The notes beneath the pieces are model-generated. The model saw only the letters and a program-made list of their open reading frames with translations. It was not told where the DNA came from and searched no databases. 40,707 nt of DNA, from assembly GCA_028715395.1 (NCBI GenBank), contig JAQURY010000005.1, positions 1 through 40,707 of the forward strand, written 5' to 3'. The first letter of the stretch is position 1, and every line of letters begins with the position of its first letter. The stretch comes from Minisyncoccota bacterium. GTDB lineage: Bacteria; Patescibacteriota; Minisyncoccia; UBA6257; 02-FULL-45-10c. Positions 2,795 to 35,370 of the stretch are shown here, piece by piece. Both the position numbers and the translations under genes were made by a program.

Positions 2795-4522
2795 AACGTT
2801 GAATCTTATTCTTTTTACGCCCGCTCCCACCGCCTCCTGTTTTAAAATCTTAAATTTCCCTATTTTCAAAGTATTTTCCACATGCGGACCGCCGCAAAAC
2901 TCAACGCTGAACGGGTTTTTCTCGTCACCGATAAAATAAACCTTAACGACAGGAGGATATTTTTCCTTAAAAAAGAACAAGGCGCCGGTCATTTTGGCCT
3001 GATCCTGGGACATTTCCTTAAAATAAACCGGCAAATCCTTTTTTATGGCTTCGTTTACCTCATTTTCAACTTTTTGAAGCTCCTCTGGCGTTAATTTCCT
3101 GTCGGAAGAAAAATCAAACCTGGCTCTTTCGGGATTTATATCCGAGCCCATCTGATGCGCCGACGGACCAAAAATATCCTGCAACGCCCTTTGTAATAAA
3201 TGCGTTGCGGTATGAAGCCGGATAACCTTGCCCATTTCTTCTTCCGAGCCCGCCTTAAGCTCTCCCGTATCCATTAAAAGACCGTGTCCTCCGAATTTCT
3301 TTTCAACGCCGGCGCGGGAAATTTCCTGGTGCTTTTTGAATTCTTCGTCAAAGTCCGCCTTATTTACTTTTTTAATTTTCGCCGGGACTAATTCTTCCAG
3401 CAATTCAAAAGGCAATCCAAACGTCTCATATATATAGAAAGCGTCTTTGGCCGTTATTTCTTTATAATTTTCAATTTCTTTCAGTCCGTTTGCCAGTGCT
3501 TTTTCAAATTTTGTTTTCTCTCCGTTTAAAATTTCCAGTATTTCTTTTTTCTTTTTCACTTCCGGATATTGCCCTCCAAAATTATCAGCGATAATATCAA
3601 CAGCCAGCGGGAACAAATCGGCATGAATGTCGTATTTTATTCCGTAAACCAAAATTCTGCGGAGCAATCTCCGTAAAACATATCCCGCTTCTTTATTTAA
3701 AGGACGCACGCCGTCCGCAATCGCGAATATGCTGGAACGCAAATGATCGGCCAAAATTCTTACAGTCCTTTCATCAAGCCCGTGGCTAACTTCCCTGATT
3801 TTTGAAATAAGCGGATGGAATAAATCCGTCTCATAAACATCGGGAACTCCTTGCATCATTACCACCAATCTTTCTAGTCCCATTCCCGTATCAATTCCCC
3901 GTGTTTCCAATTTTTCCAATGTTTTATCGGATTTTTGATAATATTCGTTAAAAACTATATTCCACACCTCAACGCCGTCAACATAAATTTCCGTTGTTGG
4001 TCCGCACGGCCCCTCGTTTCCCGTCGGCCCCCAAAAATTATCTTTTCTGCCCGCTTTTTTAATTTTATTTTTCGCAATGCCGATTTTATTATGCCAAATT
4101 TCAAATGATTCTTTATCTTCCGGCACCCCATCTTCGCCGCCAAAAATTGAAACCTCAATCCTGTCCGTGCTGATTCCCAAAACATCAACAATAAATTCAT
4201 ATCCGTATTTAATCGCCTCTTCTTTCCAATATCCGCCAAATGAAAAATTTCCCAGCATTTCAAAAAATGTAAGATGGGTGGCATCTCCAACCTCGTCTAT
4301 ATCGGAGGTTCTGAAACACTTCTGCGCCGAAGTCGTGTTTTTGCTCTTAAAATCCTTCACGGGGTCGGCTTTTCCCGTGTAATACGGCTTGAATTGCTGC
4401 ATTCCGGCCGTAGTAAAAAGCACCGACGGATCATCGGGCACCAAAGATGAAGACGACACAATCGCGTGCCCTTTCTTCTCAAAAAATTCTAAAAATATTT
4501 TTCTAATTTCGTTCGATGTCAT
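2789..4522 (-). CDS. alaS: Alanyl-tRNA synthetase, compact form without C-Ala domain
   Basis: This class II synthetase charges tRNA-Ala. The catalytic domain is clear: LFTTAGMQQFKPYYTG, CFRTSDIDEVGDATHLTFFE (motif 2 region, residues about 69-88) and GIDTGMGLERL (motif 3). The editing domain that clears mischarged Ser/Gly follows, with its zinc/catalytic HTATH at about 436-440 and CGGPH at about 541-545. The protein stops at 577 residues, straight after the editing domain. The roughly 300-residue DHHA1/C-Ala region of bacterial AlaRS (about 875 residues) is missing. The C-terminus is clean, so this looks like a genuine short form and not a frameshift. It follows rmuC by 4 nt and is probably co-transcribed with it. 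Confidence 0.95.
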   Translation of the reverse strand: MTSNEIRKIFLEFFEKKGHAIVSSSSLVPDDPSVLFTTAGMQQFKPYYTGKADPVKDFKSKNTTSAQKCFRTSDIDEVGDATHLTFFEMLGNFSFGGYWKEEAIKYGYEFIVDVLGISTDRIEVSIFGGEDGVPEDKESFEIWHNKIGIAKNKIKKAGRKDNFWGPTGNEGPCGPTTEIYVDGVEVWNIVFNEYYQKSDKTLEKLETRGIDTGMGLERLVVMMQGVPDVYETDLFHPLISKIREVSHGLDERTVRILADHLRSSIFAIADGVRPLNKEAGYVLRRLLRRILVYGIKYDIHADLFPLAVDIIADNFGGQYPEVKKKKEILEILNGEKTKFEKALANGLKEIENYKEITAKDAFYIYETFGLPFELLEELVPAKIKKVNKADFDEEFKKHQEISRAGVEKKFGGHGLLMDTGELKAGSEEEMGKVIRLHTATHLLQRALQDIFGPSAHQMGSDINPERARFDFSSDRKLTPEELQKVENEVNEAIKKDLPVYFKEMSQDQAKMTGALFFFKEKYPPVVKVYFIGDEKNPFSVEFCGGPHVENTLKIGKFKILKQEAVGAGVKRIRFNVL

Positions 4523-4526
4523 AAAA

Positions 4527-5534
4527 CTATTCTAATAATTTATTTTCACCCTCTCCCAATTCCATTAAACTTTCTGTTCTTTCTTTTAACATGTCTAATC
4601 TTTTATCAGAGCTATCATAAGAAGACCTTGCATCGCTTAAATGTTTCCCCAATTTGGAAAAATCGTCTTCTAATTTTTTAGCATCTTCAACAATTCTATT
4701 CATTCGCTTGATATAATTTTGTGTTTGTTTGCTTATTTGCAAATCTCTCGCCCATCTTTGAACAACCTGCAACATCAAATAAAATGTGTTGGGAGAGGCT
4801 AATATCACTTTCTTAGAACGTGCATATTCTACAACGTCAGAAAAAGAATTATTAATTTCGAAGAAAACTGCTTCGGCTGGAATATACATAAAAGCACAAT
4901 CCAATGTGCCCTCTGAGGGAAGAATATACTTTTGTGCTATATCATCTACTTCTCGCTTAACGTCTAAACCAAATTGTTTTTTTGCAATTTCTCTTTCTCC
5001 TTCATTCTCTAATCCAATCATTCGTTCATAATTTTCTTTTGGAAATTTTGAATCAATCGGTAATAATTTCCCATCCGGCAATTTTAATACTGCATCCACC
5101 GCTTCCTTGCTTTTAAAGTAATATTGAGTTGAAAACATTTCTTTTGGAAAATATTGGGATAAAATATGATTTAAAGCTAATTCTCCCCAATTACCACGTA
5201 ATTTAGGAGTTTTAAAAATTTGTTGAAATGAAGAAACATCTTTAAGAGAAGAATCTACTTGTTTCAAAGATTCCCCCATACTCGTAACTCCAACAGCGAA
5301 AGCAGTAATTTGTTTATGTATATCTGAGCCTGTTCTTTCTGAGCTTTCTCTATTTTCCTTAAGCCTTTCATTAACTGTATTATTTATTGCGTTAAGCTGA
5401 TTTTGTAAGAAATTTTGCAAAGATAACATCGCATCTTCTTTGGGCTTTTTCTCGCCCTGATTTTTCAAATACCAGAAAATACCGGCAAATCCAGCAACTA
5501 TTGCCACTAAAATAACGATTAAAATAGTCGTCAT
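4527..5534 (-). CDS. rmuC: RmuC-family DNA recombination protein
   Basis: The 335-residue protein starts with a membrane helix (residues about 3-23, ILIVILVAIVAGFAGIFWYL). A coiled-coil stretch rich in Asn, Glu and Ser follows, then the RmuC domain with FKTPKLRGNWGELALNHIL, LPIDSKFPKENYERM and CAFMYIPAEAVFFEI. RmuC proteins limit inversions at short inverted repeats and are thought to be nuclease-fold proteins. The biochemical activity is unproven. Length is somewhat short for the family (E. coli 475), mainly in the coiled coil. A strong promoter at 5541-5568 places the predicted transcription start at the ATG itself. alaS follows immediately. Confidence 0.9.
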   Translation of the reverse strand: MTTILIVILVAIVAGFAGIFWYLKNQGEKKPKEDAMLSLQNFLQNQLNAINNTVNERLKENRESSERTGSDIHKQITAFAVGVTSMGESLKQVDSSLKDVSSFQQIFKTPKLRGNWGELALNHILSQYFPKEMFSTQYYFKSKEAVDAVLKLPDGKLLPIDSKFPKENYERMIGLENEGEREIAKKQFGLDVKREVDDIAQKYILPSEGTLDCAFMYIPAEAVFFEINNSFSDVVEYARSKKVILASPNTFYLMLQVVQRWARDLQISKQTQNYIKRMNRIVEDAKKLEDDFSKLGKHLSDARSSYDSSDKRLDMLKERTESLMELGEGENKLLE

Positions 5535-5540
5535 ACAAAA

Positions 5541-5568
5541 ATTATACCAGCCAAACCTTATAAAACAA
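5541..5568 (-). promoter_or_regulatory. Promoter for rmuC-alaS, predicted leaderless
   Basis: TTGTTT (5563-5568), a 16-nt spacer, and an extended -10 TGGTATAAT (TATAAT at 5541-5546) lie on the minus strand. Only 6 nt separate the -10 box from the rmuC ATG, so the mRNA should begin at or next to the start codon. No Shine-Dalgarno is present. Confidence 0.7.
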
Positions 5569-5586
5569 AATAATTAACGCTCCGCC

Positions 5587-6165
5587 TTATTCCTTCATTG
5601 ACCTCATGTTTATCATAATCTCCGCTTTGCCAGCGTTCAATTCCTTACCCACGTTAATCCCTAATTCTCCAATAAAATCCCTTATTCCCTCTTTTATTCC
5701 CATAATCGCCGAATCAGTTCCCGACAAATGATTGCTTTGCACCTCCAAAAACAAACCCAGATCTTTCACGTCTTCAAAAACAATTTCGTATTTTTCATTT
5801 CTAAAAATATGCTTCTCGCTATCTATCACTACCAGCGGCTTCAACCCCAGGCGTTTTATGCTTTCCATTGCCATTTTATAATCCGATACTTCATATTCAT
5901 ATTCATCCGAATAAAGCCAAACATCGGAATTGGCAACAAAATGATCAACCTTGTAAACAATAACCGCCTTGTCTCCTTTTTTTCTTACCCTGAAACATTC
6001 ATTAAGCCTGTTTAAATGGTCCGGCTTTAAATTGGTTCTTAGCGGATCGTAAAAATAAGTATCGACGACATTTGCAATACCGACAAAATAAAACATCTTC
6101 AATATCTGCAAAGCCTTTTTCTTGCTGTCTAAAACCGGAACTAAAATTTCAATTTCTTTTGCCAT
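5587..6165 (-). CDS. CYTH-domain protein (class IV adenylate cyclase / triphosphatase-like)
   Basis: The 192-residue sequence has the layout of CYTH triphosphate-tunnel enzymes: an N-terminal MAKEIEILVPV strand, then RLNECFRVRKKGDKAVIVYK, YEYEVSDYKMAMESIKRLGL and YEIVFEDVKDLGLFLEVQS. Family members act as class IV adenylyl cyclases, thiamine triphosphatases or inorganic triphosphatases. The signature is usually ExExK; here the glutamates are present (E4, E6) but the lysine position (residue 8) is Leu. Substrate and activity therefore cannot be assigned. It lies 3 nt downstream of rnc and is the last gene of the rpmF-nusB-rnc cluster. Confidence 0.8.
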   Translation of the reverse strand: MAKEIEILVPVLDSKKKALQILKMFYFVGIANVVDTYFYDPLRTNLKPDHLNRLNECFRVRKKGDKAVIVYKVDHFVANSDVWLYSDEYEYEVSDYKMAMESIKRLGLKPLVVIDSEKHIFRNEKYEIVFEDVKDLGLFLEVQSNHLSGTDSAIMGIKEGIRDFIGELGINVGKELNAGKAEIMINMRSMKE

Positions 6166-6168
6166 AAT

Positions 6169-6864
6169 TTAATCCAATTCCTTTAACGCCTTTTTCGCGG
6201 CATCAACTTCCGCGTCTTGTTTCGCCAATCCTTCTCCTGTCGCCAATAACCTTTCTCCCAGATAAACTCCCACTTTAAAACTCTTTTTATGATCGGGACC
6301 GTATTCGCTTAAAACTTTATAAGATGGAGTCTGTTTTGTTTCAGCTTGAGTTTTTTCCTGAAGTAAGCTCTTGGCGTCTTTGTATAAGCCCGTTTTAATA
6401 ACTTCTTTCAAATGAGTCATAACAAATTTGTCGCTGAATTTTTTCGCGCTGCCATATCCGCTATCCATATATATTGCCCCGATAAGCGCTTCACAAGCGT
6501 TCGCCAATATCACTTCTCTCGCCCGTCCGGAAGTATCCTTGGATTCTCCGTGGGAAAGCAAGATATATTTTTCTATGCCGGCTTCCTGGGCCACTTTCGC
6601 CATCATCTGATAATTTACCAGCGCGGCGCGATAAGCGGTTAAAGTTCCCTCTTCATAATCGGGAAAATCTTCAAATAAATCCTCGGTTACCGCCAATTCC
6701 AAAACCGCGTCCCCCAGAAATTCCAAGCGCTCATTGTGCGGAAGTTTCCATTTATGATTTTCATTCAAATAAGACCTGTGCGTTAAAGCTTCTTTTAACA
6801 GGTCTTTGTTTTTGAATTCATAACCGATTGATTTTTCGAATTTTTTAAAATCTTTCAGTTCCAT
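6169..6864 (-). CDS. rnc: Ribonuclease III
   Basis: The 231-residue protein has the RNase III nuclease domain, with the signature NERLEFLGDAVLEL (residues about 42-55), and the second acidic site ANACEALIGAIYMDSGY. A C-terminal double-stranded-RNA-binding domain follows (about residues 160-230, TPSYKVLSEYGPDHKKSFKV and the closing AKQDAEVDAAKKALKEL). It cleaves double-stranded RNA in rRNA maturation and mRNA turnover. I chose the ATG at 6862-6864; a TTG two codons upstream (6868-6870) is possible. Length is standard. It follows nusB by 11 nt and precedes the CYTH gene by 3 nt. Confidence 0.96.
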   Translation of the reverse strand: MELKDFKKFEKSIGYEFKNKDLLKEALTHRSYLNENHKWKLPHNERLEFLGDAVLELAVTEDLFEDFPDYEEGTLTAYRAALVNYQMMAKVAQEAGIEKYILLSHGESKDTSGRAREVILANACEALIGAIYMDSGYGSAKKFSDKFVMTHLKEVIKTGLYKDAKSLLQEKTQAETKQTPSYKVLSEYGPDHKKSFKVGVYLGERLLATGEGLAKQDAEVDAAKKALKELD

Positions 6865-6875
6865 ATGCAATATTC

Positions 6876-7355
6876 TTATTCTTTATTCTCCGGTTTTTTG
6901 TCTTCTTTTTTATCTTTTGATTTGCTATCTTTCATCGGCTCGCCTATTTCGCGATAAACTGTTCCCAAAACTCCATTGATGAATTTTCCCGAATTGGTTC
7001 CGCCATAATTTTTCGCTATTTCTATGGCCTCATTAATTGCGACTTTCGGCGGCACTTCATTTCTGTCCGCGTATAAAAGTTCGTATAATCCGATACGAAG
7101 CGCATTTCTATCCACAATTGCAATCTGTTCAAGCGGCCACTCCGGCGCGGCTTTGCGGATTATGTTGTCTATTTCTTCTTTGTGGTCAATGATTCCTTTC
7201 GTTAATTTCCACGCAAATTCGGGCTCGTCTATTCCCGGCCCGAATTCTTGCATGTTCCTTTCAAGTATTTTCGTTAAATCTTCTTTTTGCTTGTAAAAAT
7301 CCCATTCATAAAGGGATTGAAGAACAATGGAACGCGCAAGTTGTCGAGTAGCCAT
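6876..7355 (-). CDS. nusB: Transcription antitermination factor NusB
   Basis: The 159-residue all-helical protein has the NusB features [20 protein letters not shown] at the N-terminus, [18 protein letters not shown] in the middle, and [15 protein letters not shown] followed by [13 protein letters not shown]. With NusE (S10) it binds boxA RNA and supports rRNA antitermination. A Lys/Glu/Asp-rich tail of about 20 residues extends beyond the family core. It sits 2 nt downstream of rpmF and upstream of rnc, a grouping that links ribosome synthesis and rRNA processing. Confidence 0.96.
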
Positions 7356-7357
7356 AA

Positions 7358-7516
7358 TTATTTCTTATATGTTTTGCATTGTCCGCACGCTCGATGCGGC
7401 AAGACCGGAGCCTTGCAATTTGAACAAATAGAAAGCCTGACTTTCTTTAAAGCCAAATGAGCGCGGTTCCTGCCTACGGCTGACTTCGAACGATGTTTTA
7501 CTGGTACTCCACCCAT
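7358..7516 (-). CDS. rpmF: 50S ribosomal protein L32
   Basis: Fifty-two residues translate from the ATG at 7514-7516: [20 protein letters not shown], then [20 protein letters not shown] and [12 protein letters not shown]. The VP.(K/R)..S....R.R.H start and the four-cysteine zinc ribbon (Cys31, Cys34, Cys44, Cys47) are diagnostic of L32. Length is typical (about 56-60). It is the first gene of the rpmF-nusB-rnc-CYTH cluster. Upstream, TTGTTA and TATAAG-like boxes on the minus strand could form a promoter, but spacing is poor. Confidence 0.95.
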
Positions 7517-7592
7517 GATATTTGCTGACTTATAATTAAGAACTTATATGCGACTAACAATAGATTATCACATATTATCTCGAGCGGTCAAT

Positions 7593-7618
7593 CAAAAAGC
7601 GGCCCTCAGCCGCTTTTA
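7593..7618 (-). terminator. Terminator after PsbP-like gene
   Basis: A perfect 9-bp stem (AAAAGCGGC / GCCGCTTTT; 7595-7603 and 7609-7617) with a 5-nt loop lies 14 nt beyond the stop of the minus-strand gene at 7632. The T-run at its end is short. Confidence 0.75.
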
Positions 7619-7631
7619 AAATCGCTATTTG

Positions 7632-8210
7632 TTACTTTGTACCAAACGACGAAACTGATTTATAAAATAAGTCCTTATATTTATTCCAGTCATCCAAAGA
7701 AACATTATAAGTCAAAAGCCAGGAGGTCTTGATGTCTTTGAATAAAACAACTGTAAGTTTCTTAAAATTAACACTGTTAAGGACATAATCCGATTCGATA
7801 TAAAAAGCGGGAAAACCGTTTATATATTGACCGCCCTCCGGATATATAAATTCGCTTTTTGTCGTTGTCTTATCAAGAAAACTCTTAAGGTTATCAAGAT
7901 AATCGCCTACGGCCTTATTTGATAAAACCTCTTTCTGCGCTGAAAAATATTCTAGGGCCGATTCCGAATCGGACAATTTCACCCCAACTGGATTTATCGC
8001 CATAAAATTGGTCGATGCTACTTCTGTCCATCCCTTTGGGGCAAACATTGAAAAATCTTTATTTTGAACAGTTTCTGAGTTTAATTCTAATGCCGCTATT
8101 TCTACCGGAATAATCTTTACTCTAGTTTTAAAAACCAGAAAATATAGCGTTGCCAAAACAAAAATCATGGCAACTACAATAAAAATAATTTTTATAATTT
8201 TATTTTTCAT
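7632..8210 (-). CDS. Membrane-anchored PsbP/MOG1-like protein
   Basis: The 192-residue protein has a single N-terminal membrane helix (residues about 5-26, IIKIIFIVVAMIFVLATLYF). A soluble domain follows with FSMFAPKGWTEVAST, YINGFPAFYIESDYVLN and LTVVLFKDIKTSWLLTYNVS. This pattern (a 'P.GW' strand, then 'G.PA', then a strand of aromatic and hydrophobic residues) resembles PsbP/MOG1-fold proteins that are common as anchored proteins in CPR genomes. The domain should face outward. Function is unknown. It follows the Cys-rich secreted protein by 4 nt and is probably co-transcribed with it. A second protein of the same layout lies at 27583-28176. Confidence 0.6.
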   Translation of the reverse strand: MKNKIIKIIFIVVAMIFVLATLYFLVFKTRVKIIPVEIAALELNSETVQNKDFSMFAPKGWTEVASTNFMAINPVGVKLSDSESALEYFSAQKEVLSNKAVGDYLDNLKSFLDKTTTKSEFIYPEGGQYINGFPAFYIESDYVLNSVNFKKLTVVLFKDIKTSWLLTYNVSLDDWNKYKDLFYKSVSSFGTK

Positions 8211-10033: not shown

Positions 10034-10073
10034 AAAAAATCCGTCGAAAGTTAATAACTCTCGACGGATTTTA
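10034..10073 (-). terminator. Terminator after barrel-like gene 1
   Basis: A long hairpin has AAAATCCGTCGA / TCGACGGATTTT arms (10036-10047 and 10061-10072) plus an inner AGTT/AACT extension across one mismatch. On the minus strand it is followed by a six-base T-run. The stem overlaps the stop codon of the 10071 gene. Confidence 0.9.
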
Positions 10074-11165
10074 AAACTCACAACCGACACGAATATAAAA
10101 CCTCATATTTACACCCGTATCGCCGTCCCACACATTCACCCAATTCTTCTCGCTCTCGCTGACATCAAAATCACCGGCATTTTCTTCTAGATTTTTCGAC
10201 CACTCAAGATTTTGGGGCAAAGCTTCGGGGGTTCTTTTCTCTTTGTAAGAAATATTCAAACCAATCCCACCAAGTTGTCCTCCAACTTCAAGCTTTAGCC
10301 CACCAGCAATCTTGTATTCCGCCCCAACACTATACAGCCAAATTTCTGCCTTATCCCGGCTACTTACACTTTCATATTCATACTCAACCGGGTAAAAAAA
10401 GCATCCATATGGAGTATAGGCCTGATCGAAAACGCTTGCCCTTCCCGAAAAATCCATCTGAGCGACGCCGTATCTCGCCTCAACAAAACAAGAAAATTTT
10501 GACTCGTTTATCCCTGGCGTTGATGCAAGATTGTACCGAAGATTAAAAGTGGTCATCTGCGAAGAAAACCCAAACCGTGAAATATCTACGGCATAAGTAT
10601 CTCCCCATCCCCAGTCCTGCAATTTGTAGTCTTGATGAATTGGATTTGTTGTCCTGGACCATTTTCCAGAACTAAGTCCAAAACTCCAATGACTTTTTTT
10701 AGGACCAAACATTACGGTCCAATTGCTGGTTTCTGAGCAACCATTTCCAGAATCAAAATGAGTTGATGGAAATACCCCTGTTCTTCCGTAAGTCAACGCT
10801 GAATAATTATTCAAACGATTATTCATAAGATCCAGCAGCCGATTTACGTCCAAATTAGAATCCAAAGCACGTCCTGCATTTTCGGTCGCAATCTCAAATT
10901 TCCAACCGCTATTTTTTTTCTGATCCGTTTCTGTGTCCAGTTGAATCCGCTCCAGTATTCTCTGTCTGCGCCCTTCCGCTTCCGTAGAAGATGACTTTTC
11001 AACTTCCGCGGCTGGAACAGTGCTGACAGCGACGCTGGGCGCCACAGTATCGGCAACAACTTCCTGAGAATTGTCTATGCCGGAAATGTTTTCGGACATT
11101 CCGTCGGCAATAGCCAATCCGCAAGCCATCACAACAACTGCAACTGCCAAAAAGATTTTCTTCAT
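10071..11165 (-). CDS. Secreted beta-barrel-like (outer-membrane-type) protein 1
   Basis: The 364-residue protein has a signal peptide (MKKIFLAVAVVVMACGLAIA, cleavage near residue 21; VMAC is also a weak lipobox). A low-complexity Ser/Val/Glu region and a short basic helix follow to about residue 90. The remainder alternates polar and hydrophobic residues in amphipathic strands, such as MTTFNLRYNL, KFSCFVEARYGVAQMDFSG and AEIWLYSVGAEYKIAGGLKL. It ends in MRFYIRVGCEF, with the terminal Phe typical of outer-membrane barrels. I do not recognise a specific family. It has a TTGACT-17-TATATT promoter, a strong AGGAGG and its own terminator, so it is a monocistronic unit. A barrel is surprising in a CPR genome, which is thought to lack a classical outer membrane. 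Confidence 0.6.
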   Translation of the reverse strand: MKKIFLAVAVVVMACGLAIADGMSENISGIDNSQEVVADTVAPSVAVSTVPAAEVEKSSSTEAEGRRQRILERIQLDTETDQKKNSGWKFEIATENAGRALDSNLDVNRLLDLMNNRLNNYSALTYGRTGVFPSTHFDSGNGCSETSNWTVMFGPKKSHWSFGLSSGKWSRTTNPIHQDYKLQDWGWGDTYAVDISRFGFSSQMTTFNLRYNLASTPGINESKFSCFVEARYGVAQMDFSGRASVFDQAYTPYGCFFYPVEYEYESVSSRDKAEIWLYSVGAEYKIAGGLKLEVGGQLGGIGLNISYKEKRTPEALPQNLEWSKNLEENAGDFDVSESEKNWVNVWDGDTGVNMRFYIRVGCEF

Positions 11166-11173
11166 GGCTATCG

Positions 11174-11179
11174 CCTCCT
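11174..11179 (-). promoter_or_regulatory. Strong Shine-Dalgarno of barrel-like gene 1
   Basis: AAAAGGAGGC lies on the minus strand, with AGGAGG 8 nt before the ATG. The same ten bases precede the 94-aa gene at 12068. Confidence 0.85.
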
Positions 11180-11182
11180 TTT

Positions 11183-11199
11183 ATCCGCTCTTGGCGGAT
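11183..11199 (-). other. Leader hairpin next to Shine-Dalgarno
   Basis: A perfect six-base-pair stem (ATCCGC / GCGGAT, loop of 5) ends 3 nt before the AAGGAGG of barrel-like gene 1. It could expose or hide the ribosome-binding site or protect the mRNA 5' region. Confidence 0.55.
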
Positions 11200-11216
11200 T
11201 AGATTTTCAGCTTTTT

Positions 11217-11238
11217 AAGTTGTCAAAAAAACCAACTT
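11217..11238 (-). other. Second leader hairpin
   Basis: AAGTTG / CAACTT arms enclose a T-rich loop on the minus-strand transcript, about 20 nt downstream of the predicted transcription start of barrel-like gene 1. Confidence 0.4.
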
Positions 11239-11251
11239 TTTACTTAAATAT

Positions 11252-11280
11252 AATATATCACATTTTAAACAAAAAGTCAA
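11252..11280 (-). promoter_or_regulatory. Promoter for barrel-like gene 1
   Basis: TTGACT (11275-11280), a 17-nt spacer, then TATATT (11252-11257) on the minus strand. The predicted leader is about 80 nt and contains two hairpins before the Shine-Dalgarno. Confidence 0.65.
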
Positions 11281-11292
11281 TCTCATCAGAAA

Positions 11293-11327
11293 ATAAAAAC
11301 CGCCTTCAAATTACTTTGAAAGCGGTC
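11293..11327 (-). terminator. Terminator after barrel-like gene 2
   Basis: ACCGCTTTCAAA pairs with TTTGAAGGCGGT with one mismatch and a four-base loop (11299-11326), then TTTTTATTT on the minus strand. It lies 10 nt after the stop of the 11337 gene. Confidence 0.85.
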
Positions 11328-11336
11328 CCTTATATT

Positions 11337-11894
11337 TCATAAGGCAAAAAGCGCGCTCACGCCCAGGTTTAATACCGTAATATTCCCCAATTCGGAATAA
11401 TTCAAAACATAGTATTTCAACCCGGCGTCAATCGGCACTTTCCCTGATTTGTTAAAAACATATCCTGCTCCAAGCGATAGCGCAAAATGAGAAACCGGCG
11501 TTCCGCCCGTTGCTGAGCAAGAAAACACGCCAATCCCTCCCTGGACATATGCACTCTTCTTTTCTCCCAATCTGTAATCCAGAATACCCATTGTGGAAAT
11601 TGCCGTAACGGCATAAGTCAAATTACCCAGAAAATTTCCTTGGCCATCGCGGGATTCTACCTGCAAGCTCCACAGATTAAAATATCCCGTTTCAAAACCA
11701 TACCTCAGCTTTTCTCCGAACAGCGCCTGTGCATTCGCGCCCAAGCCATTATTGTTATATGCATCATACCAGCCAGCCGTCGGTGAGGCGGTGTTAGTGA
11801 AACTAATTCCGGCTTTAAACATAACTGCCTGTGCCGCATTGCCGGAAAAAACCATCACCGCGAACATCAAAACAAACATTGCCATCCTTTTCAT
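11337..11894 (-). CDS. Secreted small beta-barrel-like (OmpA/OmpW-type) protein 2
   Basis: The 185-residue protein has a signal peptide (MKRMAMFVLMFAVMVFSGNA, cleavage after AQA near residue 23). The mature part of about 160 residues alternates amphipathic strands and turns: LRYGFETGYFNLWSLQVESR, YAVTAISTMGILDYRLGEKK, SAYVQGGIGVFSC, FALSLGAGYVFNKSGKVPID, then the last strand NITVLNLGVSALFAL. Size and strand spacing fit an eight-stranded outer-membrane barrel of the OMP_b-brl kind. No known function is recognised. The gene has a TTGACT-17-TAAAAT promoter, an AAGGAGAG Shine-Dalgarno, a leader hairpin, and its own terminator. It is the second barrel-like gene of the island and diverges from the 12068 gene. 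Confidence 0.6.
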   Translation of the reverse strand: MKRMAMFVLMFAVMVFSGNAAQAVMFKAGISFTNTASPTAGWYDAYNNNGLGANAQALFGEKLRYGFETGYFNLWSLQVESRDGQGNFLGNLTYAVTAISTMGILDYRLGEKKSAYVQGGIGVFSCSATGGTPVSHFALSLGAGYVFNKSGKVPIDAGLKYYVLNYSELGNITVLNLGVSALFAL

Positions 11895-11900
11895 GATTCA

Positions 11901-11941
11901 CTCTCCTTATTAACGGACTTGTCCGATCAGGATTATTCCGT
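11901..11941 (-). promoter_or_regulatory. Shine-Dalgarno and switch-like leader hairpin of barrel-like gene 2
   Basis: AAGGAGAG (11901-11908) lies 6-7 nt before the ATG. Just upstream, CGGAC/GTCCG can form a hairpin (11914-11925). The same TCCGT segment (11913-11917) could instead pair with an ACGGA further upstream (11937-11941), so two mutually exclusive folds exist. Confidence 0.5.
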
Positions 11942-11967: not shown

Positions 11968-11996
11968 ATTTTAATATAAAATCAATTAAAAGTCAA
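11968..11996 (-). promoter_or_regulatory. Promoter for barrel-like gene 2
   Basis: TTGACT (11991-11996), a 17-nt spacer and TAAAAT (11968-11973) lie on the minus strand. The -35 box is one base away from the -35 box of the divergent plus-strand promoter. Confidence 0.6.
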
Positions 11997-12067: not shown

Positions 12068-12352
12068 ATGCCTGACGATTTTGTAAAAAGAACAATTTTT
12101 GCCATAAAAGAAGAAGTTAAGAAAAACAGCTTTCAGATAAATGGACACACCTATGTTCCTTTGCACTCAACAAGTTTTCCGCTGGTAATCCTGAGCCGCC
12201 TGGAAAAGAAAGGTTTCTGGATCCGCCGCAAAACACTGCTTGATGTGCTAAAAGAAAATAATCTTCGGTACAAAGACTACAAGAATATTCCGCACATTGA
12301 CCACCTCCATCCCGGAGTCTCCTGTTTTGAAATACTGAAGCCTATCGCCTAA
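12068..12352 (+). CDS. Orphan 94-aa basic protein
   Basis: I do not recognise this 94-residue protein. It is predicted to be soluble, with no signal peptide or membrane helix. It has charged helices (DDFVKRTIFAIKEEVKKNSF), a short hairpin-like region (INGHTYVPLHSTSFP), an Arg/Lys-rich stretch (RLEKKGFWIRRKTLLDVLKE) and a His-rich end (IPHIDHLHPG). That middle looks like a small winged-helix or helix-turn-helix, but no motif is convincing. Coding status is supported by a very strong AAAAGGAGGC Shine-Dalgarno 5 nt before the ATG, a promoter and a perfect terminator right after the stop. It diverges from barrel-like gene 2 and could be a local regulator; this is only an inference. Confidence 0.7.
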   Translation: MPDDFVKRTIFAIKEEVKKNSFQINGHTYVPLHSTSFPLVILSRLEKKGFWIRRKTLLDVLKENNLRYKDYKNIPHIDHLHPGVSCFEILKPIA

Positions 12353-12886: not shown

Positions 12887-15800
12887 ATGAAACCCTTTAT
12901 TCACCTCCACACCCATTCGCACTATTCCCTCCTTGATGGTTTGGCTAAAATTGACGGCCTTGTGGACCGCGCCAAAGAACTCGGCATGGATTCACTCGCT
13001 CTCACCGATCACGGCAATCTTTACGGCGCCATAGAGTTTTATAAAACCGCAAAAAGAGCTGGCATCAAACCGATTCTCGGAGTTGAAACTTACGTTGCCC
13101 CAAACAAACATACGGATAAGCGTCCCAAAATAGATAATCAAAATTATCACCTGATTCTTTTGGCTGAAAATAAAACCGGCTGGCAAAATATAATTCACCT
13201 TGTCACAAAATCTTATCTTGACGGGTTTTATTACAAACCGAGAGTAGATCATGACCTGCTCCGCGAATATCACGAGGGAATTATCGCCCTCTCCGCCTGC
13301 GCGGCGGGAGAAATCGGCCAAGCAATTATTTCAAACCAATATGAAGAAGCGAAAAAAATCGCTCTGGAATATGAGCATATTTTCGGCAAGGGAAATTATT
13401 TTTTGGAAACTCAACATCACCCGAATATTTCCGACTGCATAAAAATAAATAAAGAGGTTTTGAAACTCTCAAAAGAAACCGGAATTGAAGTTGTGGCCAC
13501 GCAGGATATCCATTATTTAAAACCCGAGGACGCGGATGTGCACGACGTTCTGCTCGCGGTCCAAACAGGCAATACTATTGATGACCCCGACCGCCTGACT
13601 TTAAAAATGGACGATTTTTCAATGCGTTCGCCGGAAGAAATGAACGAGTTTTTTAAAGACAATCCGGAAGTTTTGGAAAACACCGCAAAAATCGCTGAGC
13701 GCTGCAATGTCGAAATAGAACTCCACAAAATCATGTTGCCGAAATTTTCTTTGCCGGAAAATAAAACCGCCAATGATTTTTTGAATGATTTAATAAAAGA
13801 AAAATTGCCTCTGCGATACAGCCCCGTCACTGACGAAGTCCAAAAACGTCTGGATTTTGAATTGAGCGTCATAGAAAAAACCGGATTCACCGATTACTTT
13901 TTAATCGTCCAGGATTTCGTCAATTGGGCAAAAGAAAGAGGCATTGTCGTGGGACCGGGCAGAGGTTCGGCCGCCGGCAGCATAGTTTCTTATATATTGG
14001 GAATCACCGACTTGGATCCGCTAAAATATAATCTCCTTTTTGAAAGGTTTTTAAATCCTGAAAGAATTTCCATGCCCGATATCGATTTGGACTTCACCGA
14101 CGTCCGCCGGGATGAAGTTTTCGGGTATTTGAAAGAAAAATACGGAGAAAACAGAACCGCCCACATTATTACCTTCGGAACAATGGCTGCCAGAGCCGCA
14201 ATCCGCGATGCCGGCCGGGCCATGGGAATACCGCTAAGTTTCTGCGACCAAATCGCCAAACTGATTCCATTTAACAATGACTTGGACGAAGCCCTAAACG
14301 GCGTGTCTGAGTTGAAAACTCTTTATGAAAACGAACCTGATGCCAAAAAACTTGTTGATATAGCCAAAAAATTGGAAGGAGTGGCCCGACACGCATCCGT
14401 TCACGCCTGCGGAACCGTTATCTCGCAGGAACCGCTGACTGATTACTTGCCACTTCAGCATTCCCCTCAAGACCCCAATGCGGTTATGACTCAATTTGAA
14501 ATGCACAGTATTGAAGATATTGGTCTTTTAAAAATGGACTTGCTCGGACTGAAAAACCTGACCATCATTGAAAACACTTTGCGACTCGTTGAAGAAAATA
14601 CCGGAGAAAAAATAAATATCGGCAACATTCCTTTGGACGATAAAAATGTTTTCAAAATTCTGCAGGAGGCCGATACCACCGGAATCTTCCAGCTGGAAAG
14701 CAGCGGCATGCGCCGGTATCTGAAAGAATTAAAACCAAGCAATATGGAAGATATTATTGCCATGGTCGCTCTTTACCGCCCCGGACCGATGGAGCTTATC
14801 CCGACCTACATAAAAAGAAAATTCGGAAAAGAGCCCGTTGTTTATCTCCACGAAAAACTTGAACCCGTTTTGAAGAACACTTATGGCATCATGATTTACC
14901 AGGAACAGCTGATGAACGGCGCGCGCGCCCTGTCCGGCATCACTCTTTCGGAAGCGGACATTTTAAGAAAAGCCGTCGGAAAGAAAATCGCCAAATTATT
15001 GCAGGAACAAAAAAGCAAAATTATTGACGGCGCGATAAAAAACGGCGTCAAAAAAGAAATCGCAGAGCAATTCTGGCTGCTGATTGAGCCGTTTGATAAA
15101 TATGGATTCAACCGTTCGCATGCCGCCTGCTACGCCATGATCGCCTATCGCACCGCTTATTTGCGAGCCCATTTCCCGGCTGAATTTTATACCTCGCTTT
15201 TCAACTCCGATTCCGGAGATATTGAACGCATAGCATTCCTGATATCTGAAGCTAAAAAAGCCGGCATTGCGGTTTTGCCCCCGGATATAAATAAAAGCTT
15301 GGCAACTTTCGCGCCAGAGGAAAAAAGTGTCCGATTCGGGCTTCTGGCAATTAAAAATCTTGGACAAAATATTGTCGACGCTATCGTCAGCGAAAGACAA
15401 CGAGGCGGACCATTCAAAAACCTCACCGATTTGCTGGAACGCGTTGACCATAAAGACCTAAATAAAAAATCTCTTGAAGCATTGCTTAAATGCGGCGCGC
15501 TGGAATCGTTAAATATAGAAAGAAATTCCGGATTATTGAATATTGAAGATATTCTTAAATTCTCCGGCAACTTAAAACGCTCCAAGCAGACAAACCAGCA
15601 TTCTCTGTTTGGCACCCATTCCAATACTCCGTCCTTAAACTCTCTGAAGCTTAAAGTTGTTCAAGAAGCCACTCCGAAAGAACGCCTGGCCTGGGAAAAA
15701 GAATTGCTCGGTCTTTATATTTCCGACCATCCTCTCAATTCCTATAAAGAAAAAATTGCTGAACAGCAGAAACAATATGAAATAAACGATATTAAATATT

Positions 15801-16075
15801 TAAACACCACCAATGGAGACCTCTCGCCGGTCAAGCGGTATAAAATCGTTGGAATGGTCGCCAAAATCCATAAAATCGTCACCAAAATGGGTCAGCCGAT
15901 GGCTTTCGTAGTAATTGAAGATTTTACCGATAATCTGGAAATAATAGTTTTCTCCGATACTTTGGAAAAAACCATGCCCATTTGGCAAGAAGGAAAAGTG
16001 GTGCTTGTTTCCGGAAAAATGTCTTTCAGAAACAACGAGCTTAAAATGATTTGCGAACGCGCGGTAGAAATATAA
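12887..16075 (+). CDS. dnaE: DNA polymerase III alpha subunit
   Basis: The 1062-residue protein is the replicative polymerase subunit. The N-terminal PHP domain is visible from HLHTHSHYSLLDG (residues 6-18) and LTDHGNLYGA to GVETYV. The polymerase core has GPGRGSAAGSIVSYILG (about 353-369) and PDIDLDF (about 400-406, catalytic aspartates), then GIFQLESSGMRRYL and YGFNRSHAACYAMIAYRTAY. Near the C-terminus an OB fold with MVAKIHKIVTKMGQPMAFVV lies at about 985-1004. Length is slightly short of E. coli DnaE (1160). It is transcribed alone, divergent from the microprotein operon. A weak TAGAAT -10 lies about 9 nt before the ATG, and there is no Shine-Dalgarno. Confidence 0.97.
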   Translation: MKPFIHLHTHSHYSLLDGLAKIDGLVDRAKELGMDSLALTDHGNLYGAIEFYKTAKRAGIKPILGVETYVAPNKHTDKRPKIDNQNYHLILLAENKTGWQNIIHLVTKSYLDGFYYKPRVDHDLLREYHEGIIALSACAAGEIGQAIISNQYEEAKKIALEYEHIFGKGNYFLETQHHPNISDCIKINKEVLKLSKETGIEVVATQDIHYLKPEDADVHDVLLAVQTGNTIDDPDRLTLKMDDFSMRSPEEMNEFFKDNPEVLENTAKIAERCNVEIELHKIMLPKFSLPENKTANDFLNDLIKEKLPLRYSPVTDEVQKRLDFELSVIEKTGFTDYFLIVQDFVNWAKERGIVVGPGRGSAAGSIVSYILGITDLDPLKYNLLFERFLNPERISMPDIDLDFTDVRRDEVFGYLKEKYGENRTAHIITFGTMAARAAIRDAGRAMGIPLSFCDQIAKLIPFNNDLDEALNGVSELKTLYENEPDAKKLVDIAKKLEGVARHASVHACGTVISQEPLTDYLPLQHSPQDPNAVMTQFEMHSIEDIGLLKMDLLGLKNLTIIENTLRLVEENTGEKINIGNIPLDDKNVFKILQEADTTGIFQLESSGMRRYLKELKPSNMEDIIAMVALYRPGPMELIPTYIKRKFGKEPVVYLHEKLEPVLKNTYGIMIYQEQLMNGARALSGITLSEADILRKAVGKKIAKLLQEQKSKIIDGAIKNGVKKEIAEQFWLLIEPFDKYGFNRSHAACYAMIAYRTAYLRAHFPAEFYTSLFNSDSGDIERIAFLISEAKKAGIAVLPPDINKSLATFAPEEKSVRFGLLAIKNLGQNIVDAIVSERQRGGPFKNLTDLLERVDHKDLNKKSLEALLKCGALESLNIERNSGLLNIEDILKFSGNLKRSKQTNQHSLFGTHSNTPSLNSLKLKVVQEATPKERLAWEKELLGLYISDHPLNSYKEKIAEQQKQYEINDIKYLNTTNGDLSPVKRYKIVGMVAKIHKIVTKMGQPMAFVVIEDFTDNLEIIVFSDTLEKTMPIWQEGKVVLVSGKMSFRNNELKMICERAVEI

Positions 16076-16092
16076 AATCTCAACCCCAACTT

Positions 16093-16128
16093 TGTATAGT
16101 ATATGCTAATATTAGCATATACTATACA
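16093..16128. repeat. Perfect 36-bp palindrome between dnaE and thrS
   Basis: The left half (TGTATAGTATATGCTAAT) and the right half (ATTAGCATATACTATACA) are exact reverse complements, with the axis between 16110 and 16111 and no spacer. No T-run follows on either strand, so it is not a standard intrinsic terminator. It lies 18 nt after the dnaE stop and 54 nt before the thrS -35 box. Confidence 0.9.
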
Positions 16129-16181
16129 GATTTAACTTTGATTATTGAAACATCCTTTAAATATCTTATATATTGGTAATT

Positions 16182-16210
16182 TTGAAAAACTTTAAAAAAT
16201 CATTTATAAT
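16182..16210 (+). promoter_or_regulatory. Consensus promoter for thrS, predicted leaderless
   Basis: TTGAAA (16182-16187), a 17-nt spacer and a perfect TATAAT (16205-16210). The ATG follows after only 6 nt, so transcription should start at or beside the first base of the start codon. Confidence 0.8.
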
Positions 16211-16216
16211 CTAACC

Positions 16217-17962
16217 ATGTCCGAAAAATCAATTGAAAACATCCGCCACTCGCTCTCCCACCTTTTGGCCGCGGCAGTGCTCAAAAAATATCCCGATACC
16301 AAGCTCGGCATCGGCCCGACTATTGAAAACGGGTTTTATTACGATTTCTTATTTACCAAGCCGATTAATGACGCCGATTTAATTGAATTTGAAAAAGAAA
16401 TGAGAGCCCTCATTAAACAAAGCCTTGATTTCAAATCTGAAGAAATCACTTCCGCCGCCGCTAAAAAATTATTCAAAAACCAACCCTTTAAATTAGAACT
16501 TATTGAGGAACTAGCGAAAGAAAAATCGCCGATGTCTCTGTATCACACCAGCGATATTTTTACCGACCTTTGCCGCGGCCCGCACGTCAAAAATACAAAA
16601 GAAATAAATCACGACGCCTTCAAACTCACCCATATTGCCGGCGCCTATTGGAAAGGCAGCGAAAAAAATCCGATGCTTACCAGAATTTATGGCTTGGCCT
16701 TCAATACCAATAAAGAGCTGGAGGATTATTTGGTATTTATGGAAGAAGCCAAAAAACGCGACCATCGCGAACTCGGCAAAAAATTTGAAATATTCACTTT
16801 CAGCGAGGAAATCGGTCAAGGACTTCCCATTTGGCTCCCCAACGGAACCATTATTAAAGATTTAATAGAAAATTTGGCCAAGGAAAAAGAAGCTGCCGAA
16901 GGATATCAGCGCGTCAGCACTCCTGTCATTACAAAAGAAAATCTTTTTATAAAAAGCGGCCATTTGCCCCATTACAAAGAAAGTATGTATGCGCCGATGG
17001 ATATAGACGGAGAAAATTATTATTTGAAGCCGATGAATTGCCCGTTTCACCACACTGTTTATGCTTCCAAGCCGCGAAGTTATCGCGAACTGCCCTTGCG
17101 CTTGGCTGAATATGGTCTTTGCCACCGCTATGAAAAAAGTGGTGAGCTCCAAGGACTTATGAGAGTTAGATCAATGGATATGAATGATGCTCATATTTAT
17201 GTGCGTCCCGACCAGGTTCGCGACGAAATTAAAAGAGTTATTGAGCTTCATGAATTTTATTATAAGCTTTTTGAAATCAAAAAAATAAAATATCGTTTGT
17301 CTCTCCATGATAAAAAAGAGCTTGGTAAAAAATATGTTGATATGCCCAAAGCCTGGATCGAAAATGAAAAAATTCTCCGCGAAGTTCTTCAAGGCCTAAA
17401 AGTTGATTTCTATGAAGCCGAAAACGAAGCTGCATTTTATGGACCAAAAATAGACATTCAAGTCTATTCGATTATCGGAAAGGAATACACGCTCGGAACA
17501 GTTCAGCTAGATTTCGCACAGCCTCAGCGTTTTGATTTGAAATATATCGACGATAAAGGCAAAGAAGTTATGCCCTATGTTATCCATCGCGCCCCCCTTT
17601 CCACGCACGAAAGATTTATAGGATTCCTCATTGAACACTATGCCGGCGCTTTTCCGTTTTGGCTGTCTCCCGTTCAGATAAAAATTCTGCCTGTCGGAGA
17701 AAATCACGTTAAAAAATGCCAGGAAATTAAAGATTCTCTGTCCGCCGAAAAATTCAGAGTTGAAATTGATGATTCCGGCGAAACCCTTGGGAAAAAAATC
17801 CGCGGAGCCGAAATGCAGAAAGTTCCTTATACTATCGTCATCGGAGATAAAGAAATGGAATCGGGCAAAATCGCCGTCCGTGAAAGAGGTAAAAAAGACA
17901 TTGAAACAATAGAGCTGGATAAATTCATTGAAAACTGCCAAAAATTGACAATTAAAATATAA
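16217..17962 (+). CDS. thrS: Threonyl-tRNA synthetase lacking the TGS domain
   Basis: The 581-residue class II synthetase charges tRNA-Thr. It starts directly with the editing domain: RHSLSHLLAAAVLKKY (zinc/catalytic HxxxH) and LCRGPHV with the matching Cys and His. The catalytic core follows: LKPMNCPFHHTVYASKPRSY, GLCHRYEKSGELQGLMRVRS (motif 2), GTVQLDFAQPQRFDLKYI and YVIHRAPLSTHERFIGFLIE (motif 3). The anticodon-binding domain is at the C-terminus (SPVQIKILPVG to the end). The roughly 60-residue N-terminal TGS domain of E. coli ThrRS (642) is absent. Motif 3 reads APLSTHERF instead of the usual AILGSLERF. A consensus promoter makes this transcript leaderless, and a bidirectional terminator follows. 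Confidence 0.96.
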   Translation: MSEKSIENIRHSLSHLLAAAVLKKYPDTKLGIGPTIENGFYYDFLFTKPINDADLIEFEKEMRALIKQSLDFKSEEITSAAAKKLFKNQPFKLELIEELAKEKSPMSLYHTSDIFTDLCRGPHVKNTKEINHDAFKLTHIAGAYWKGSEKNPMLTRIYGLAFNTNKELEDYLVFMEEAKKRDHRELGKKFEIFTFSEEIGQGLPIWLPNGTIIKDLIENLAKEKEAAEGYQRVSTPVITKENLFIKSGHLPHYKESMYAPMDIDGENYYLKPMNCPFHHTVYASKPRSYRELPLRLAEYGLCHRYEKSGELQGLMRVRSMDMNDAHIYVRPDQVRDEIKRVIELHEFYYKLFEIKKIKYRLSLHDKKELGKKYVDMPKAWIENEKILREVLQGLKVDFYEAENEAAFYGPKIDIQVYSIIGKEYTLGTVQLDFAQPQRFDLKYIDDKGKEVMPYVIHRAPLSTHERFIGFLIEHYAGAFPFWLSPVQIKILPVGENHVKKCQEIKDSLSAEKFRVEIDDSGETLGKKIRGAEMQKVPYTIVIGDKEMESGKIAVRERGKKDIETIELDKFIENCQKLTIKI

Positions 17963-33400: not shown

Positions 33401-34645
33401 CTATTCATATCTAAGCGCCTCTATAGGATCCTTGTGAGCCGCCTTTTTGGCGGGATATAATCCAAAAACCAAACCTACCAATGCTGAAATTCCTATTCCC
33501 ATTAAAGCCGCCGAAACCGGAAAAGTGAAAGGCCAGTTAAGATTCGCAAATTTGCTTAATCCGATTGCAGTCAAAAAAGAAAGAGATGTTCCTAAAACTA
33601 TTCCTATAAAACCGCCCATTGCCGTCAGCGCGATTGACTCAAGCAAAAATTGATTAAGTATATCCTTCTCGGTAGCGCCCAAGGCCTTTCTCAAGCCGAT
33701 TTCGCGAGTTCTTTCGGTTACTGAGACAAGCATGATATTCATGATTCCCACTCCGCCTACTAAAAGAGAAATCGCCGCTACTGCCGCTAAAAATAACGTC
33801 AGCACGCTCATTACCGAACCAACCATTTTCAAAGCATCCGCTTGGCTGTTTACCTGAAAATCGTCTTTTTCCGGATCTGTGATTCCATGAGAATTTCTTA
33901 TTGTAATTTTAATATCCTCAACTGTCCGGGCAACATTTGCTTCGGTATCCGCCTCTACAATAATATGATTGAAATATTTTATTCCCAAAATATACTGCTG
34001 GGCAGTTGTATAGGGAATAATAACCGTACTGTCAAAACTCACCAAACTTCCCGAACCTTTTTGGGGCAATATTCCGATTATTTTGAAATTTTTTCCTTTG
34101 ATTTTTATTTTTTGACCAAGAACATCTTCATTATTGCCGAAAAGTTCTTCTTTTACGTCATAACCGATAACAACAACATCCGAATAGCTTTTTACGTCTT
34201 CCTCGCTGAGAAATCGCCCCTCTCCAGTAACAATTTTATAAAACCTGGAAGCAAGCTCTGTCATTCCATAAAGAGTTCCCTGGTATGTTTCGCCGCCGTA
34301 AATTGCGCTCACGCTTCCAAAAACCAGGGGCATAATCCCGTCAATATGCGGAGCGTTACTCTTTTTCCCCAAGGCATCAACGTCTTTTTGTTTTAATGAG
34401 TCGGAAAATATGGACATAAAATCCGTCGGTCCTTTTGCCTGCCGCCCCGGCGCGATTTCAATAACCTTGGAACCCATCTGCCCTTGAATTTGATCCAGAA
34501 TTAAATTCTGCGCGCCCTCGCCCAAAGACATCACCATCATTATGGCGGTGATACCTATAACAATTCCCAAAATCGTCAGCGCGGAACGCGATTTATTTGT
34601 TTTTAATCCCCTTGTAGCGGTTTTAAATATATAATGTAGAGTCAT
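33401..34645 (-). CDS. ABC transporter permease, MacB/FtsX type
   Basis: The 414-residue protein has the four-helix MacB layout. An N-terminal helix with SRSALTILGIVIGITAIMMV (residues about 20-39) is followed by an extracytoplasmic MacB_PCD domain of about 230 residues. Three C-terminal helices follow: LFLAAVAAISLLVGGVGIMN, the LESIALTAMGGFIGIVLGTS segment, and VSAALMGIGISALVGLVFGL. The VTERTREIGLRKALGATEKD loop is typical. MacB-type permeases drive export by mechanotransmission. Together with the ATPase and adaptor next to it this is a three-gene exporter; the substrate is unknown. It lies 3 nt after the ATPase gene. Confidence 0.92.
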   Translation of the reverse strand: MTLHYIFKTATRGLKTNKSRSALTILGIVIGITAIMMVMSLGEGAQNLILDQIQGQMGSKVIEIAPGRQAKGPTDFMSIFSDSLKQKDVDALGKKSNAPHIDGIMPLVFGSVSAIYGGETYQGTLYGMTELASRFYKIVTGEGRFLSEEDVKSYSDVVVIGYDVKEELFGNNEDVLGQKIKIKGKNFKIIGILPQKGSGSLVSFDSTVIIPYTTAQQYILGIKYFNHIIVEADTEANVARTVEDIKITIRNSHGITDPEKDDFQVNSQADALKMVGSVMSVLTLFLAAVAAISLLVGGVGIMNIMLVSVTERTREIGLRKALGATEKDILNQFLLESIALTAMGGFIGIVLGTSLSFLTAIGLSKFANLNWPFTFPVSAALMGIGISALVGLVFGLYPAKKAAHKDPIEALRYE

Positions 34646-34648
34646 GGA

Positions 34649-35368
34649 TTATTTTATAAAATGATTTTTCGCATCATGACGGTGCTCAACTTTTCTGTCA
34701 CTGTCCACTTTTCCATCTAAAATATGAATTATCCTCTGAGCATGTTCGGCCGTATAAGTTTCATGAGTTACCAAAATAATCGTATGTCCTTTTTCTTCGT
34801 TGAGTTTCTGGATTATTTCCATTACCATCTGACCGGATTTTGAATCCAGGTTTCCCGTCGGTTCATCCGCAAAAATCACATCCGGCTTTAAAATCAAAGC
34901 CCGCGCTATCGCCACTCTTTGTCTTTCTCCTCCGGATAACTGCGACGATTCGTGAGTTAATCTATGGGAAAGCCCCACGGCCTCAACCGCTTCTTTGGCC
35001 AGCTTATCCCAGTCCTTTTCCGGAATACCGGAATATAAAAGCGGTAATTTAACATTTTCCAAAACAGTAGTGCGCGGAAGCAAATTAAATGTCTGAAAAA
35101 TAAACCCCATATTCTTATTTCTTATGCGCGCCGCCTCTTCGTCTGTATGTTTGCTGACCAATTTTCCGTCAAAAAAATATTCCCCATTGGTTGGCCTGTC
35201 CAAAAGTCCCAAAATATGGAGAAGCGTTGATTTGCCTGAGCCGGACGGCCCCATAATCGCCACAAACTCCCCCTTTTTGATATTAAAAGAAACGCCGTTC
35301 AGGGCCGGCGTTTTTACTCCATCATCCGCATAAATCTTTTCTAAATTGTTTATTTCTATTAATTCCAT
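34649..35368 (-). CDS. ABC transporter ATP-binding protein, LolD/MacB type
   Basis: The 239-residue ATPase has the Walker A motif [20 protein letters not shown] (about residues 40-59), the Q-loop [20 protein letters not shown], the signature [20 protein letters not shown] and the Walker [17 protein letters not shown], then the H-loop LVTHE. The '[15 protein letters not shown]' and '[13 protein letters not shown]' segments are characteristic of the LolD/MacB/FtsE-like group. It energises the neighbouring permease. It lies 2 nt after the adaptor gene and 3 nt before the permease. Confidence 0.95.
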
Positions 35369-35370
35369 TT

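Follow-up and report, generated by a model that had tools for sequence, protein, structure and literature searches.

The window, a stretch of 40,707 nucleotides, encodes two proteins, designated P1 and P2, whose properties support the occurrence of beta-barrels of the outer membrane protein (OMP) type in a bacterial lineage regarded as monoderm. The support comes from profile matches, strand statistics, a C-terminal signature and recurrence in the family, and is stronger for P2 than for P1. Judged from sequence, P2 is most likely an eight-stranded OMP, and P1 probably forms a larger barrel preceded by a linker. Patescibacteria are held to be without an outer membrane (PMC12102498), its loss being placed on their stem (PMC12329446), and current reconstructions of outer-membrane loss count them as monoderm (PMC12329446, PMC12102498); most CPR genomes come without reliable envelope information (PMC8871954). 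The genome to which the window belongs, as contig C13, has 715,486 bases (99.4% complete, contamination estimate 6%), which is consistent with the CPR-type genome of the original prediction; the 380 sampled phylum members, near complete and from many families, are nearly all 0.5-1.1 Mb in size, and it is from these sizes and completeness values that the phylum is deduced to be Patescibacteria.

Both ORFs with signal peptides that had been predicted are present as given, on the minus strand (Table 1). By inspection, their N-termini are Sec-like, with a short positive segment followed by a hydrophobic core and an AXA-type site (MKKIFLAVAVVVMACGLAIA followed by D in P1, and MKRMAMFVLMFAVMVFSGNAAQA followed by V in P2). 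Each gene has its own promoter-like site of the form TTGACT-17-TANANT and its own intrinsic terminator, and the upstream boxes, the ribosome sites and the downstream hairpin with a T-run recur at the orthologs in the congeneric genome G001.

Table 1. Features of the P1-P2 region (window coordinates) and Omp85-like genes of related genomes (locus:coordinates)
Feature	Position	Strand	Basis or remark
P1 ORF	10071-11165	-	364 aa, C-terminus FYIRVGCEF
P1 promoter-like site, TTGACT-17-TATATT	11252-11280	-	TTGACTTTT...CTATAT retained in ortholog
P1 Shine-Dalgarno, AAGGAGG	11174-11180	-	sequence; retained in ortholog
P1 signal peptide, residues 1-20, AIA before D	11106-11165	-	inspection; near-identical in ortholog
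P1 linker, residues 21-85	10911-11105	-	conserved; no strand-like pattern
P1 barrel-like part, residues 86-364, C-terminus RFYIRVGCEF	10074-10910	-	PF13505, strand score, ortholog end ISYEF
P1 intrinsic terminator, 17 pairs	10036-10072	-	hairpin and T-run also 3' of ortholog
P2 ORF	11337-11894	-	185 aa, C-terminus VSALFAL
P2 promoter-like site, TTGACT-17-TAAAAT	11968-11996	-	TTGACTTTT and A/T-rich -10 retained in ortholog
P2 Shine-Dalgarno, AAGGAG	11903-11908	-	sequence; retained in ortholog
P2 signal peptide, residues 1-23, AQA before V	11826-11894	-	inspection of translation
P2 mature part, 162 aa, most likely an eight-stranded transmembrane beta-barrel	11340-11825	-	profiles, strand score, hhalign
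P2 intrinsic terminator, 16 pairs	11295-11330	-	hairpin and T-run also 3' of ortholog
Secreted Cys-rich protein downstream of P1	8215-9999	-	likely start ATG 9999; order P1, Cys-rich, PsbP-like kept in G001
Membrane-anchored neighbour, weakly PsbP-like	7632-8210	-	
Proteins of ~1300 aa, relatives	L010:138-3995 and 4106-8035; L011:4246-8145		
POTRA-like and Omp85-like protein, 558 aa, genome G011	L046:178-1854	-	

With a signal peptide and a mature part of 162 aa, P2 falls within the ~150-190 aa of small eight-stranded OMPs. Its single match in NCBIfam is an OMP family, NF049866 (TDE1717 OMP, E 0.0012); P2 itself has no Pfam match and lies below the curated OMP_b-brl cut-off. The P2 ortholog matches PF13505 (OMP_b-brl) with residues 6-180 against positions 3-175 of 175 (E 3.6e-4), a score of 21.2 bits that is under the curated cut-off of 28.7 yet covers the full length, and it also weakly matches TIGR04565, another OMP family. 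A profile of the P2 pair retrieves Escherichia coli OmpX among 478 ORFs (E 0.0019), and hhalign aligns P2 with the same protein at a probability of 78% (E 1.8e-5 for one comparison). The OmpX match is taken as supporting evidence only, because an ArsC-family protein reached a similar E-value from a huge scan; this protein (L007), the single match of the scan of genome contigs, was rejected as a chance match. In P2 and its ortholog a Phe is located two residues before the last. AlphaFold2 with single-sequence input gave a pLDDT of 36 for the mature part, too low to count for or against a closed barrel. Size, strand pattern and the PF13505 match of the ortholog agree with the earlier proposal of a barrel of eight-stranded size; P2 is very probably a transmembrane barrel.

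For P1, the only family match is PF13505, below the cut-off (E 0.012, 16.3 bits versus 28.7), so that the informative family matches of P2, its ortholog and P1 are all to OMP families (PF13505, NF049866 and TIGR04565). The terminal Phe noted earlier was confirmed; the C-terminal strand of P1 ends in an aromatic residue, as does that of its ortholog (SISYEF), while a C-terminal aromatic is found in none of the 28 other window genes. The claimed long runs of amphipathic strands are also borne out by a simple alternating amphipathic-strand score, expressed as z versus composition shuffles: it is 3.8 for the barrel part of P1 and 2.4 for P2 (orthologs 3.0 and 4.3), compared with 2.1, 2.4 and 4.9 for E. 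coli OmpX, OmpW and OmpA-TM, 0.3 for the soluble OmpA domain and -1.5 to 1.9 for 14 other window proteins. The strands of P1 are separated by long polar stretches, and its barrel part gave a similarly uninformative pLDDT of 31 with single-sequence AlphaFold2. These weak profile matches, strand scores beyond shuffling and C-terminal aromatics make P1 a likely transmembrane barrel. A comparison of P1 with OMPs of a third genus of the family gave 64% in hhalign (E 6e-5 for one comparison) but only 0.29 in hmmsearch, and no homology is claimed. A PDB sequence search with the P1 and P2 profiles returned nothing meaningful, and no relatives were found in viral contigs.

Among 100 relatives, orthologs of P1 and P2 are encoded only by G001, where a 146 kb contig carries them in the gene neighbourhood seen in the window: the P2 ortholog adjoins dnaE and a 94-aa gene, and the P1 ortholog adjoins the Cys-rich and PsbP-like pair. 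The P1-P2 stretch (2.1 kb) agrees in composition with the remaining contig (r 0.88). A chimeric join at 10-12 kb, raised as a possibility in the original prediction, is ruled out by this synteny together with the native composition. Identity between the window and G001 is 51% for P2 and 40% for P1, versus 92% for DnaE and 94% for L11, which indicates that the barrels diverge fast. The 94-aa gene, located between P2 and dnaE (12068-12352, plus strand), is 89% identical in the sister species. The Cys-rich neighbour is not barrel-like (strand score z 0.0); directly after its signal peptide, and not at the C-terminus, lies a match to PF18962, the sorting domain of type IX secretion (E 0.0039, and 2.6e-4 in the ortholog).

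At least one OMP candidate is carried by 14 of the 17 genomes of the family to which the window belongs. PF13505 matches (E <= 0.001) occur in seven of the 17, representing three genera, compared with nine of 379 genomes elsewhere (by genome p 6e-7, by genus p 0.005), and several family members exceed the curated cut-off. The OMPs of the third genus are 233-260 aa long, have signal peptides and end in GIGIKF, GLSKKF, GIGLKF, GGSVRF or GVSVGF; one of their genes lies in a genome assembled into three contigs, on a contig of 554 kb. Nearly all family OMPs show the C-terminal aromatic pattern, the barrels differ between genera, related loci are found in other genomes on contigs of 554 kb and 608 kb, and pseudopilin-like genes adjoin some of the barrel genes. 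Two further OMP_b-brl proteins, one above the Pfam cut-off, are encoded on contig C30 of the window's own assembly (L036:10510-10980 and 15771-16517), in a region that contains a serine recombinase, a tyrosine integrase and a DNA methyltransferase, is less window-like in composition and is possibly mobile or a contaminant.

Elsewhere in the phylum, a FadL-type protein (PF03349, E 3e-43) is encoded on a 290 kb contig of genome G427, an OmpA-membrane-like protein in G337, and OMP-like matches were found in G170 and G334 of family f88; OMP-like loci outside the window's family include L039:814-1995, L040:1462-2130, L038 and L042. The PF13505 match of G369 (L041), beside uppS at a contig start, looks like Bacteroidota DNA, suggesting that some of the sporadic phylum matches may be contamination.

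A protein of ~1300 aa, comprising a signal peptide, an HExxH peptidase-like part, a PD40 propeller and an Omp85-like barrel ending in FWxGxNF/W, is present in seven of the 17 family genomes (G002, G004, G007, G008, G010, G012 and G013) but was found neither in the 84 remaining genomes of the order nor in a phylum sample of 380 that contains no known carrier. The C-terminal barrel carries an RGxP motif, and two of these proteins exceed the PF01103 cut-off. In G004, two such genes stand in tandem, with an M50 protease gene and proS-mreBCD downstream of them. The ~1300-aa type cannot be a general insertase, since it is missing from most genomes that carry the PF13505 type. The 558-aa protein of G011 combines a POTRA-like match with a barrel bearing an RGY motif, its best solved-structure match being BamA (E 0.055); its gene adjoins a lamin-tail-domain-like gene, and a neighbour of the same type is found at the Omp85-like gene of G010 (L034).

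Outer-membrane machinery was searched for with control genomes that gave matches in every search. No Omp85 (PF01103) or POTRA match was found in the window's genome, in a search that recovered two of the seven genomes with the ~1300-aa barrel and could miss a divergent BamA; G001 likewise gave no Omp85 match, and its one POTRA match, below the threshold, falls in an ORF of 142 aa that does not encode an Omp85 protein. LptD was found in none of 21 genomes searched, the controls being positive only in two proteobacteria, and TolC family proteins, TamB and secretin were not found in the family genomes searched. Of the BamA and Lpt genes that the original prediction proposed to look for, BamA was not detected in the window's genome and LptD in none of those 21, while Omp85-like proteins were found in other family members. 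By the markers searched (BamA, LptD, TolC, TamB and secretin), no classical diderm-LPS envelope was recognised. The window also contains genes of a MacB-like permease, an ABC ATPase and an HlyD-like adaptor (33401-36909, minus strand), with no TolC partner detected in the genome.

The favoured reading, held tentatively and with somewhat less than even confidence, is that P1 and P2 are Sec-exported OMP-type barrels of the cell's own outer layer, which would be unusual and free of LPS; their fold, membrane and function are all inferred. They would be two members of a family-wide barrel repertoire, which after Sec export would fold into the cell's own outer lipid layer with neither LPS nor a recognisable BAM. 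P2 would form an eight-stranded OmpX/OmpA-like barrel acting as a surface-exposed small barrel or adhesin, and P1, with ~10-12 strands behind a 65-residue linker, might be a porin-like channel or a host-contact protein; the fast-evolving loops would face the host. Small barrels can insert spontaneously in vitro, and insertion may be spontaneous here or aided by a divergent Omp85 protein like those of related genomes. This reading is weakened by the profile matches of P1 and P2 under curated cut-offs, by single-sequence models too poor to show a closed barrel, by the failure to find an Omp85/POTRA protein in the genome or its sister or LptD, TolC, TamB and secretin in the family genomes searched, and by the published view of Patescibacteria as devoid of an outer membrane (PMC12102498, PMC12329446). 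Pseudopilin-like genes adjoining some barrel genes also make an outer membrane without secretin awkward. The wider proposal that the family is diderm, with a non-LPS outer membrane, lineage-specific beta-barrels and no canonical BAM, whether inherited from a diderm ancestor or acquired anew, and that the phylum would thus not be uniformly monoderm, is a doubtful possibility.

Alternatively, a monoderm cell living on a Gram-negative host or prey could export the barrels into the outer membrane of that partner, or into contact-site vesicles, making the host leaky or marking it. The undetected BamA, LptD, TamB, TolC and secretin would fit such a cell, as would the retained canonical C-terminal signal and the genus-to-genus difference and fast divergence, which are like those of host-facing proteins. 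However, delivery from outside is left unexplained, since BAM acts from the periplasmic side, no secretion device is linked to the barrel genes, and the monocistronic genes, strong promoter-like sites and large Omp85-like relatives resemble ordinary envelope proteins; insertion into a host membrane is judged the less likely reading but a serious rival. A third reading takes P1 and P2 for beta-rich proteins of a lipocalin-, avidin- or adhesin-like kind, soluble or attached to the surface, that share only an amphipathic strand pattern with OMPs. It would account for the weak matches, the failure to obtain a closed-barrel model and the polar stretches of P1, but is hard to reconcile with the full-length PF13505 match of the P2 ortholog, family members above the curated cut-off, the C-terminal aromatic signature and the RGxP-containing Omp85-like relatives, and is unlikely. 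An assembly artefact, in which DNA of a diderm was binned with or joined to a Patescibacteria genome, is very improbable in general and is refuted for P1 and P2, given that a separately obtained congeneric genome has these genes in the same surroundings, the matching composition and the related loci on long contigs of other genomes. In its favour are the contamination estimate and contig C30, with its mobile-element-like region and less similar composition, for which it may still hold.

A family with OMP-type barrels, including Omp85-superfamily proteins, in most genomes represents a concrete target for imaging. Either the cells have their own outer bilayer or the barrels are exported into another cell; each outcome would be a novelty relevant to the diderm/monoderm question and to epibiont-host contact. 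A partial literature search returned no publication on a comparable barrel repertoire.

Among known systems, P2 resembles the eight-stranded OMPs of the OmpX/Ail and OmpA-TM type in size, signal peptide and strand pattern, in the full-length profile match of its ortholog and in its weak alignment with OmpX. It differs from them in scoring under the curated cut-off, in having F at position -2 instead of last, and in its lineage, which has no known outer membrane or detected BAM. Resemblance to the Omp85 superfamily (BamA/TamA) is limited to relatives of the window's genome, and in their ~1300-aa form the place of the POTRA domains is taken by an HExxH peptidase at the N-terminus and a beta-propeller. 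Outer-membrane-type genes in CPR bacteria have likewise been reported from soda lakes, where the existence of an outer membrane was left open (PMC6146748); those bacteria are reported to carry OmpA and LPS biosynthesis genes, whereas the family described here has a family-wide set of barrels without LptD.
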